From: Methylovulum sp.
Lineage (GTDB): Bacteria; Pseudomonadota; Gammaproteobacteria; Methylococcales; Methylomonadaceae
NCBI RefSeq assembly: GCF_028687615.1
Contig: NZ_JAQTZU010000026.1
Span: 1 to 41,281, forward strand
Direction: 5' to 3'
Length of the DNA stretch: 41,281 bases
The notes under the pieces were generated by a model. That model saw only the letters and a program-made list of their open reading frames with translations. It had not been told where the DNA came from and searched no databases. This document shows positions 4,629 through 37,317 of this stretch, piece by piece. A program made the translations under genes and the position numbers. The stretch's first letter is position 1. Each line of letters starts with the position of its first letter.

Positions 4629-4877
4629 ATGTCAATAAACGATAGCGTTATAACACTTCTAATAGAGGTTTTCCAGTTTCAGAATAAGGGCTTCCAATTT
4701 TCTACAGACACGCCTTTGCTAGGCTCCATCCCCGAATTTGATTCAATGGCGGTGGTTTCCATCATCACCGCACTGGAAAACCGTTTTGGCTTTATAGTCG
4801 ATGATGATGAAATTGACGCGTCAATATTTGCAACCGTCGGCTCCTTAGTGGCATTTGTCGAGCAAAAACTGGCATGA
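4629..4877 (+). CDS. Acyl carrier protein of the exosortase-A locus
   Basis: This is an 82-residue acidic four-helix carrier protein. The phosphopantetheine attachment site is the Ser in EFDSMAV (about residue 39). Its partner is probably the AMP-forming ligase at 9717-11309, which could load a substrate on the arm, with the PLP decarboxylase and the two hydrolases acting around it. This set recurs in XrtA/PEP-CTERM loci, but the product is not known. The downstream hydrolase starts 13 bp after this stop, so the genes are co-transcribed. Confidence 0.85.
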   Translation: MSINDSVITLLIEVFQFQNKGFQFSTDTPLLGSIPEFDSMAVVSIITALENRFGFIVDDDEIDASIFATVGSLVAFVEQKLA

Positions 4878-9557: not shown

Positions 9558-9705
9558 TATACTCTGAACGGTCACGATTTCGGTTTTTTTAGGTAGGGTA
9601 CGCTGTGCGTACCTTTTGCATTGATTTTATGATGATTTTTAAAGGTACGCACAGCGTACCCTACGATGGATTGCAAAAACCGAAAACGTGACCGTTTGAA
9701 GTATA
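9558..9705. repeat. Long nested inverted repeat (MITE-like hairpin)
   Basis: The inner arms 9593-9616 and 9641-9664 are exact reverse complements over 24 bp. Outer arms 9567-9589 and 9675-9697 match with only two mismatches, and a further 6-bp match (TATACT at 9558-9563 with AGTATA at 9700-9705) extends the fold. The whole 148 bp can form a cruciform or RNA hairpin. It lies between hicB and the ligase stop, and could act as a terminator, an attenuator or a non-autonomous mobile element. Confidence 0.7.
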
Positions 9706-33074: not shown

Positions 33075-33166
33075 TTGTCCACGAAATACACTAAAAGCAC
33101 GAAAAACATCACAAATTGATATGTTTTCTTGATTTTTTCGTGTTTTTCGTGTTTTTCGTGGACAAT
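33075..33166. repeat. Inverted repeat with tandem TTTTTCGTG units after hisD
   Basis: TTGTCCACGAAA at 33075-33086 is exactly inverted at 33155-33166, and the right arm holds three tandem copies of TTTTTCGTG (33133-33160). The left arm carries degenerate counterparts (CACGAAAAA). It can form a long hairpin and probably terminates the his transcript or is a dispersed repeat. Confidence 0.6.
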
Positions 33167-35295: not shown

Positions 35296-35426
35296 GATTT
35301 GAATCCGCGACAAAGCGTTATCTCTGTTTAAAATAAGGAAAGGCAATGTTTGTATCTCGTTTATAGTGGACCCCGAAATCCAGACAGTAGTTTAAGCCAT
35401 ACTCTGATCCAAAATTGAGACAGAAA

Positions 35427-35726
35427 ATGGGTGAAAGCAAACGCAAGGTATTTACGGGAACCCAAAAAGCCAAGGTTGCCCTAGAAGCGATCAAAGGCAT
35501 GGGGTACACCCGAAGGTGAGTCAATGGAAAAAAGAGCTACTGGAAAATGCCGGCAGCTTGTTTGAAGGTAAACGAGGGCCCAAAGTGGCCGACGCACAGA
35601 GCGGCCCTGACCGGTTATACGCCAAGATTGGGCAGTTGGATATGGAGCTGGATTGGCTTATACCCTCTGTACCCTCTGGGGCATAAAGGGCACAAGAAAA
35701 AAAGTCTGGGCTCAGCCTTTAACTGA
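35427..35726 (+). pseudogene. IS3 orfA remnant
   Basis: MGESKRKVFTGTQKAKVALEAIKG is followed by a deletion and frameshift; the other frame then gives GVHPKVSQWKKELLENAGS and LYAKIGQLDMELDWL, the leucine-zipper tail of OrfA. The expected end is at the TGA 35724-35726. The A7G run at 35697-35704 is the classical -1 slippery site for making OrfAB. An insertion of 34 nt (35660-35693) precedes it. Confidence 0.75.
35660..35693. repeat. Micro-insertion 1 (34 nt) in the IS3 transposase
   Basis: Extra bases between the codons for LDWL and KKK. Contains TACCCTCTG twice in tandem and ends GGGCAC. Taking it out restores the family reading LDWLKKK at the frameshift site. Confidence 0.6.
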
Positions 35727-35899
35727 ACGCCAGAGTTGGATAGAACCCAATGATGCGGTTGCATTATCAACGCAATGCAGGCTTCTTAAGGTCACACGTC
35801 CAGTCGTTTATGAGCAGAACAAGCGTTTGTTGAAAGCGCCGGATCAGGATGAGCTCGTGTTATTGCGCTTGTTGGATGAAGAGTACACGCGACCCCCGT

Positions 35900-35921
35900 C
35901 GCCTAAAGCGCCTACTGTTGG
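35900..35921. repeat. Micro-insertion 2 (22 nt), copy a
   Basis: The extra 22 bases begin CGCCTAAAGCG and hold CGCCTA twice. Removing them restores PPFYGSRRM, the normal IS3 sequence. It is the exact reverse complement of 36211-36232. Confidence 0.75.
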
Positions 35922-36000
35922 TTTATGGTTCACGCCGTATGAAGGAATACCTGAGTGAATGCGGCTATAGCGTCAACCGCAAGCGGGTGCAGAAACTCAT

Positions 36001-36017
36001 ACCCTCAGGGCACAAGT
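36001..36017. repeat. Micro-insertion 3 (17 nt)
   Basis: The extra bases ACCCTCAGGGCACAAGT interrupt KL-MQKLGL. They share ACCCTC and AGGGCACAAG with the region of micro-insertion 1. Confidence 0.6.
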
Positions 36018-36210
36018 GCAAAAACTGGGCTTGGTCGGCATGTCCCCCGGCCCGAATACCCGCAAACCGCATCCGCAGCACAAGGTTTACCCCTACCTGC
36101 CGGCGTTGAGATTACCCGGCCCAATCAGGTCTGGAGCACTGGCATCACTTATATCCGGCTGCCGCGCGGATTTGTTTATCTGGCCGCGATCATCGACTGG
36201 TACAGCCGCA

Positions 36211-36232
36211 CCAACAGTAGGCGCTTTAGGCG
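36211..36232. repeat. Micro-insertion 2 (22 nt), copy b, inverted
   Basis: Exact reverse complement of 35900-35921, inserted between the codons for WYSRK and VLSW. Removing it restores DWYSRKVLSWRLS, the family consensus, so the borders are certain to within a base. Confidence 0.75.
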
Positions 36233-36411
36233 AGGTGCTGTCATGGCGGCTGTCGAATACGATGGATGCCGGATTTTGCGTGGACAGTCTGGAAGAGGCC
36301 ATCACGCTATACGGCACACCGGCTATTTTTAACACCGACCAAGGCGCCCAGTTTACCAGCGATGCCTTTACCGGTGTGTTACTGAAGAACAACATCACCA
36401 TCAGCATGGAC

Positions 36412-36460
36412 AGATATTTGCTCCTGCAATATCTGCATTTCCCACATCCATGTGGGTCAT
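36412..36460. repeat. Micro-insertion 4 (49 nt) with two hairpins
   Basis: The extra bases interrupt ISMD-GRGRALDN. They contain AGATATT (36412-36418) with AATATCT (36428-36434) and CCCACA (36441-36446) with TGTGGG (36451-36456), two small perfect stems. Confidence 0.65.
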
Positions 36461-37317
36461 GGGCGAGGCCGGGCGCTGGACAACATTTTTGTCGGGCGCT
36501 TGTGGCGGACCGTGAAATACGAAGAAGTGTATTTAAAGCAGCACGGCAACCTGCCGGACTTGTTGATGGGATTGACGCAGTACTTCCAATTCTATAACCA
36601 GGAACGCCGGCATCAATCACTGGCTTACAAAACGCCCGATGAAGTCCATAAAACGGCTATCGGCGGCGGTGCAAAGATTGTGGATAAATTTAATGATACG
36701 GGTGAGGCATCAGAACCCGTACAACAAAATCGGGACGGCGCCGTTCAGCTGGAGTGCTAATTGAGTTCTATCTTAACACAGGTGTTTTTTGTCTGGGTTT
36801 TGGGGGCCACTTTAATTTATCATGAAATTACTGAACGGATGAATGATAGAAATGATGGGTTCTGTCATTCTGTTTTAGCGACATTGAAAAACGAAAAATT
36901 ACAAATTCTTAAGGATGCACAGAGTAATCCTAGAATGCTTGCAACATGGCTGTATGAAAACCAAGGTGAAATGCGTTTTGGTTCTGAAAACAGATTATTC
37001 CTTGTGCTTGTTGATTCAGATGGTTTTAATAGCTCTTGGAAATTGAAGCGAAATCTTGACCTGCTAGAACCGACAATTACGAAATATCTCGATAACTTCA
37101 AAAGCAAAAAAATGGAAGATTTGAAAGTCACTTTTGGTTACAAAGGAAAACCGCAAGTTTTTACTGCCTTGGCAGATGTGATTTTTGTAGTCAGGTAGGG
37201 TGAACAAGCTTTTTTGACCACCGTTTACAACACCCAAGCTTAAAGCTTTAAATAAACGGAACGGATGGAGTTGATTGTTACACAAATTTTTCCACGCTGC
37301 TTTGGTTTTGTTTCGTT

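Follow-up and report, generated by a model that had tools for sequence, protein, structure and literature searches.

The transposase gene of a decayed insertion sequence (IS) in Methylovulum sp. carries five extra segments, which most probably represent six insertion events from three families of very small dispersed mobile repeats (a 22-mer, a 17/18-mer and a 49-mer double hairpin). That the units are mobile small dispersed repeats is very likely in our judgement: they have empty sites, duplicate no target in the pairs compared, prefer particular targets, lie nested and are present in many genomes. At 17-49 nt they appear to rank among the smallest mobile DNA known, and the machinery that moves them is unidentified. 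The three families, the self-nesting, the target preferences and the spread over many genomes go beyond the original prediction, which had described the five segments and an inverted pair of 22-mers among them. Positions refer to the window, the whole stretch of 41,281 nucleotides that was analysed.

Inserts in an IS3-type element

The element that hosts all inserts (Table 1) gives rve and rve_3 Pfam matches in three fragments of broken frames, one of them under the Pfam cut-off (29.8 vs 32.6 bits); through these the DDE integrase core, an IS3-type feature, is present. Its ends are set by an imperfect inverted repeat (TATAGTGG.../...CCACTTTA), and its extent equals that of the match to a second copy on contig C42, which is 99% identical over 1453 nt and has every insert. 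Plasmid relatives of about 65% identity are annotated as IS3-like, ISPpu29 family. A Uma2-family gene (PF05685, 34711-35295) lies directly upstream of the IS.

Table 1. The IS and the repeat units inserted in it, in window coordinates; the caret marks the insertion point.
Feature	Position	Strand	Remarks
Decayed IS3-type insertion sequence, host of all inserts	35362..36814	+	Relatives and own-genome copies align
36-nt insert: outer 18-mer TACCCTCTGGGGCACAAG, broken by the nested 18-mer	35661..35696	+	Outer halves 35661-35669 and 35688-35696
Nested 18-mer TACCCTCTGGGGCATAAA	35670..35687	+	Stands alone elsewhere, e.g. L287 in GTAGGGTACGCTG^TGCGTACCTT
22-mer copy a, CGCCTAAAGCGCCTACTGTTGG	35900..35921	+	In CCCGT^TTTATGG
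17-mer of the 18-mer family, TACCCTCAGGGCACAAG	36000..36016 or 36001-36017 (1-nt ambiguity)	+	In CTCA^TGC
22-mer copy b, opposite orientation	36211..36232	-	In GCACCT^TGCGGC (22-mer strand); C8 copy L011 empty there
49-mer double-hairpin element	36410..36458 (1-nt ambiguity)	+	In AGCATGG^ATGG

The IS was aligned with elements of related genomes (L057, L059, L060, L061 and L062) and with the own-genome copies L010 and L011. Every one of the five segments has an empty counterpart among these relatives and copies and is thus a real insert, as had been read from the window. L057, L061 and L062 are without all five, the 17-mer site included; L059 and L060 have the 17-nt insert and lack both 22-mers and the 49-mer. 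The reading would have failed had an intact relative already carried the segments, but L061, with a stop-to-stop stretch of 366 codons, has none of them. The corresponding stretch is 324 codons in L062 and shorter in L057, L059 and L060, so several of the relatives are broken too.

The first insert, taken at first for 34 nt at 35660-35693, is a 36-nt composite of two 18-mers in which the outer is split after its ninth base by the second; each of the two is also found singly elsewhere. Its empty site, GGCTTA^AAAAAAAGTC, is present in L057, L060, L061 and L062, allowing single-base differences. The insert itself precedes an A-run, which in IS3 elements is the region of frameshifting. The same site in L059 holds a different member of the 18-mer family (TACCC...GGGCAC), and L060, 93% identical to L059, is empty there. 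At 36 nt this insert is a multiple of three, and the claim that no insert is one survives only for the other four (22, 17, 22 and 49 nt). The two 22-mers are indeed exact reverse complements; the sequence comparison returns a 24-nt match because both copies sit between T and T. The 49-mer had been placed at 36412-36460 and is shifted in Table 1, and the two small stems ascribed to it form a double hairpin (fold z-score -5.27).

A partial IS copy on contig C8 (L011) has the 49-mer and an empty second 22-mer site, so either the inserts were not acquired all at once or one has since been cleanly lost. In the IS of another genome (L071 of G059) a 49-mer is inserted at the same place of the element. 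Such parallel insertions at one IS site suggest target choice, with exchange between IS copies as the alternative. A match on C35 (query 377-427) was considered as a further insert and rejected, since it shows no gap relative to the relatives and is IS sequence.

Copies, empty sites and host repeats

The 22-mer occurs at 47 places in the window's genome (up to three mismatches) and the reversed-pattern control at none, which bears out the argument that matched insertions are not a product of chance; with the window's own version as the pattern, the counts are 40 places versus one. The further copies that the prediction had called for were found in quantity, in the own genome and in others (41 of the 101 genomes searched). 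At up to one mismatch, the outer 18-mer is found at 39 places in the own genome and in 26 of the 101 genomes. For the 49-mer core (up to three mismatches for the genome count) the figures are five places, four of them within IS copies, and 16 genomes. One syntenic gap measures about 455 nt with two 22-mers in the own genome versus 75 in G019 and 80 in G006; other repeats also contribute to its length.

A scan of genome contigs with the exact 22-mer, A or T being allowed at position 8, yields at least 117 stretches, nearly all titled Gammaproteobacteria. Eight titles among the 117 stretches listed name groups outside Proteobacteria and may reflect contamination or mislabelled MAGs. As the scan is exact, the identity of the unit in it is a matter of selection; the free evidence lies in the flanks, which are unrelated among the matches listed (127 rows after removal of those with identical flanks), and in the sequence conservation, which stops at the ends of the 22-mer. 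The matches listed include contigs titled as strains: Methylobacter tundripaludum SV96, Methylotuvimicrobium buryatense 5G, Methylomicrobium sp. wino1 (complete genome), Spongiibacter pelagi KMU-158 and Oceanospirillum beijerinckii DSM 7166. These carriers leave next to nothing of the idea that the inserts are artefacts of assembly or sequencing, for which one could cite the 56 contigs of the window's genome and the many carriers titled MAG.

Phage carriage was considered and dropped, the 22-mer pattern having no match in viral_contigs. Plasmid carriage was likewise not supported: a 106-base query (host repeat plus 22-mer) had three partial matches, each confined to its host part. Plasmids NZ_CP093250.1 and NZ_CP133280.1 have host-repeat matches of 41 and 27 nt beneath pglX annotations.

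Empty and filled sites are clearest in repeats that host the 22-mer. A REP host has 26 places, 19 empty and seven with exactly the 22-mer, and no other spacing within 0-26 nt is seen at these 26. The host TTCGTGT...TTTCGTGGA is represented by 91 rows: one base separates its halves in 55 (our own count), an exact 22-mer stands at that point in six and an altered one in two, and 28 rows have other spacings, some overlapping the rows already counted. No target duplication is found in the empty/filled pairs of the IS alignment, the REP host or the TTCGTG host. Within the own genome, three host repeats account for 30 of 38 22-mer rows, 10 apiece, and other contexts for eight, two of which are this IS (38 of 41 matches kept after identical 30-nt flanks were dropped; the C42 IS pair is not in the locus list). 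At 33137-33162 the window has an empty copy of a genome-wide repeat, TTCGTGTTTTTCGTGTTTTTCGTGGA, that hosts the 22-mer elsewhere. In an 841-kb sample, five of 20 22-mer places fall inside frames of at least 120 codons, two of the five in IS copies; such frames, counted in all six reading frames and with GTG and TTG allowed as starts, make up 82% of the sample.

The number of 22-mers overstates the number of insertions, part of it arising from duplicated host repeats with the 22-mer inside. Twenty copies of G020, all of one variant (of 28 places), fall into three flank classes; 20 of the 93 copies of G034 fall into five, and 20 of the 28 of G047 into six. This copying of composites, together with the chance that same-site insertions in the IS of two lineages are exchanges between IS copies, is what can be said for old, immobile repeats that were spread by recombination, gene conversion or slippage and appear as inserts through decay. 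We regard that account as very improbable: one unit recurs in unrelated contexts and in IS coding sequence, with clean empty sites, whereas events driven by homology would bring their flanks along. The original proposal of a micro-element able to insert in either orientation agrees with the many further copies in unrelated contexts with empty counterparts. Its companion, a templated insertion process, cannot be excluded as a mechanism, but a precise, recurring unit is a better fit to a mobile element.

Target preferences and nesting

The 22-mer target, GCNT^TRC, was derived from 82 nonredundant junctions of 162: T at -1 in 72 and at +1 in 67, a purine at +2 in 69, G at -4 in 54, C at -3 in 51 and C at +3 in 42. 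Over the 10 nt shown, flank information drops below 0.1 bit at position 7 on the left and position 6 on the right and stays there further out. The 18-mer target is A^TG (36 nonredundant of 52 junctions), with A at -1 in 29, T at +1 in 20, G at +2 in 24 and T at +2 in none of the 36. The junction sets leave out copies that contain N or lie close to an end, as well as repeated 14+14 flanks; clustering was at 17 of 24. Among 43 rows of the 49-mer, 25 have a left flank that equals GCATGG or departs from it by one change, and ATG follows on the right in 21 of these 25. A single host repeat contains most of the rows and the IS copies of the own genome supply four, so the rows are not independent. 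The site of the 49-mer in the IS resembles its target, GCATGG^ATG.

Agreement at the other IS sites is partial: 22-mer copy a is without the G at -4 and the purine at +2, copy b without the G at -4, and the main own-genome hosts of the 22-mer also match the motif in part only. One of the three 18-mer-family sites in the IS, that of the 17-mer, fits A^TG; the 36-nt insert stands in A^A and its nested 18-mer in G^G. Hairpin loops were considered as a general target of the 22-mer and rejected, as stems of at least 6 bp stand at a minority of junctions (17 of 162; 5 of the 82 nonredundant) compared with 0.9% of mismatched flanks (0.8% for the nonredundant set). Stem centres shifted by 1-2 nt score equally, and a +6 shift still gives 7% of the 162.

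Nesting is observed within and between families. An 18-mer lies in an 18-mer in the 36-nt insert, and a 22-mer lies in an inverted 22-mer at four loci of G047 (L408, L410, L418 and L420). The 18-mers are found within a AGACCTGTCAGGTTT palindrome and within a REP, and a single hub repeat, read by eye as TCGGCAACTGCTCCTGCGTTGCTCTACCTCCTGCATCCATGCAGTCG, hosts 22-mer, 18-mer and 49-mer. The window itself has an inverted pair of GTAGGGTACGCTGTGCGTACC REPs (9593-9613 and 9644-9664); this REP hosts an 18-mer at L287:11734.

Possible routes of movement and related systems

Movement is inferred to proceed by copy-type insertion driven in trans, the units being too short to encode anything; the analysis turned up no mobilising gene and caught no insertion in progress. 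Each unit enters DNA whole, with fixed ends, in either orientation and without target duplication. Insertion favours a short target (GCNT^TRC for the 22-mer, A^TG for the 18-mer, the vicinity of GCATGG^ATG for the 49-mer), and the units often enter other small repeats, sometimes copies of their own family.

Passage through RNA copies and reverse transcription is an unlikely route, although not a negligible one. It is in keeping with the structure of the 49-mer: in a set of 44 distinct copies, pairing reaches 89% in hairpin 1, where 7 of 10 pairs show double changes, and 91% in hairpin 2, where 4 of 6 do, compared with 28-51% pairing and 1-6 (hairpin 1) or 1-3 (hairpin 2) double-change pairs in slid controls. 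The search pattern fixed part of the stems, so this copy set favours the structure. RVT_1 matches are also present in several copy-rich genomes, such as G003, G019, G020, G029 and G047. There is, on the other side, no supported fold for the 22-mer: 56 of 200 shuffles match its fold (31 of 200 for the other strand), and among 54 variants a 3-bp stem is 91% paired with a double change in one of three pairs, slid versions giving 0-2. Moreover, no RVT_1 match is found in the window's genome (99.96% complete, 47 22-mers and 39 18-mers) or in G034 (99% complete, 93 22-mers), with the reservation that a reverse transcriptase may have been lost or have diverged.

Still less credible to us is the view of the inserts as REP/REPIN-type repeats that Y1 (RAYT) transposases mobilise. 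GTAG does occur within the other strand of the 22-mer, a GTAG REP is a frequent host of it, and Y1_Tnp matches are found in the window's genome and in 85 of the 101 genomes searched. The GTAG of the 22-mer is internal, however, not terminal, and none of four element patterns occurs in the four loci scanned around Y1_Tnp matches of the own genome (L086, L087, L088 and L090). Only 6 of 40 22-mer places have a neighbour within 400 nt (our own count), unlike REP doublets. Y1_Tnp matches are lacking in G003 (27 copies, 100% complete), in G047 (28 copies, control 1, 99% complete) and, with fewer copies, in G002, G005 and G100.

Two of the Y1_Tnp loci have repeats beside the match. At L086:1-800 (G000:C2), tandem units of about 49 nt with CCCCGCCGGGG palindromes stand beside the match C2:1029-1373, an arrangement suggestive of a RAYT accompanied by repeats of its own. 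In L087 (G000:C56) a Y1_Tnp frame of 261 aa is followed by REP-like palindromes such as CGCATTACGCTATCGCTAATGCGCCCTAC; one half of this resembles the 22-mer strand GTAGGCGCATTAGGCG, and on that resemblance alone an origin of the 22-mer here is possible.

RVT_1 has no match in some copy-rich genomes and Y1_Tnp none in others, so neither family is common to all; G019, G020 and G029 have both. The enzyme-family search may miss divergent members, and copies may outlast their mover. The likeliest mechanism, which we propose tentatively and at less than even confidence, is strand transfer at the DNA level: an unidentified enzyme, not a RAYT, would insert a short copy into a target that is nicked or single-stranded.

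To our knowledge the movement of cyanobacterial small dispersed repeats (SDR), too short for two ends and a gene, is unexplained. That of mitochondrial GC clusters is likewise open (PMC4478555). With units, empty sites and target motifs resolved here to single bases, with several carriers whose titles name strains, and with the field narrowed by where two candidate enzyme families do and do not occur among 101 genomes, the question of movement can be put to a direct test. An ecology, hosted by Gammaproteobacteria, of 17-49-nt elements with their own target preferences, nesting and lineage-to-lineage spread, moved by an enzyme class distinct from reverse transcriptases and Y1 transposases, would be the smallest class of target-specific mobile DNA, which we offer as a possibility that the evidence does not yet favour. 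No report on these units was found among the openly licensed papers searched, nor any occurrence of six element strings in them.

The units share with GTAG REPs and REPINs that they are short, mostly intergenic repeats (PMC3733652, PMC3116915). REPs are also described inside palindromes and inside genes (PMC3733652), so nesting as such has precedent. The 22-mer differs in having no terminal GTAG plus hairpin and no linked RAYT (four Y1 loci scanned), and the REP is here the target; close inverted doublets do not predominate, the only inverted pairs being those of the two IS copies. Unlike a MITE, the units show no target duplication in empty/filled pairs, and the 22-mer has no inverted ends on direct reading. 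A repeat of about 115 nt at L302 (~4711-4828) is MITE-like, with inverted ends AGGATTTGGC...GGCCAAATCCT, a CCTGACAGGTTT palindrome mid-way and, among the matches listed, 14 further copies in the same genome (93-100%). Yeast mitochondrial GC clusters are similar in that they are short, palindromic (as is the 49-mer), proliferating and merging, with the mechanism open and an RNA/reverse-transcription route suspected in part (PMC4478555); the units described here are in bacterial chromosomes. Sponge hairpin elements appear to be comparable short elements (PMC2800124).

PMC2884548, which cites Elhai et al. 2008, mentions small dispersed repeats of about 20 bp as possibly mobile. The present units differ from the cyanobacterial SDR in phylum, in the lengths of the 17/18-mer and the 49-mer, which fall outside about 21-27 nt, in forming three families with their own target preferences, and in the 22-mer having no supported fold. 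Cyanobacterial SDR units are said to be about 21-27 nt long, dispersed and without coding capacity, to be nested in other repeats and in themselves, and to be probably mobile by an unknown mechanism; some families reportedly share a secondary structure with compensatory changes, and RNA copying with reverse transcription is said to have been suggested for them. The likeness is one of analogy: the 22-mer is in the same size range, dispersed (47 places) and non-coding, the units lie in other repeats and in themselves, and in these respects they resemble the cyanobacterial SDR.
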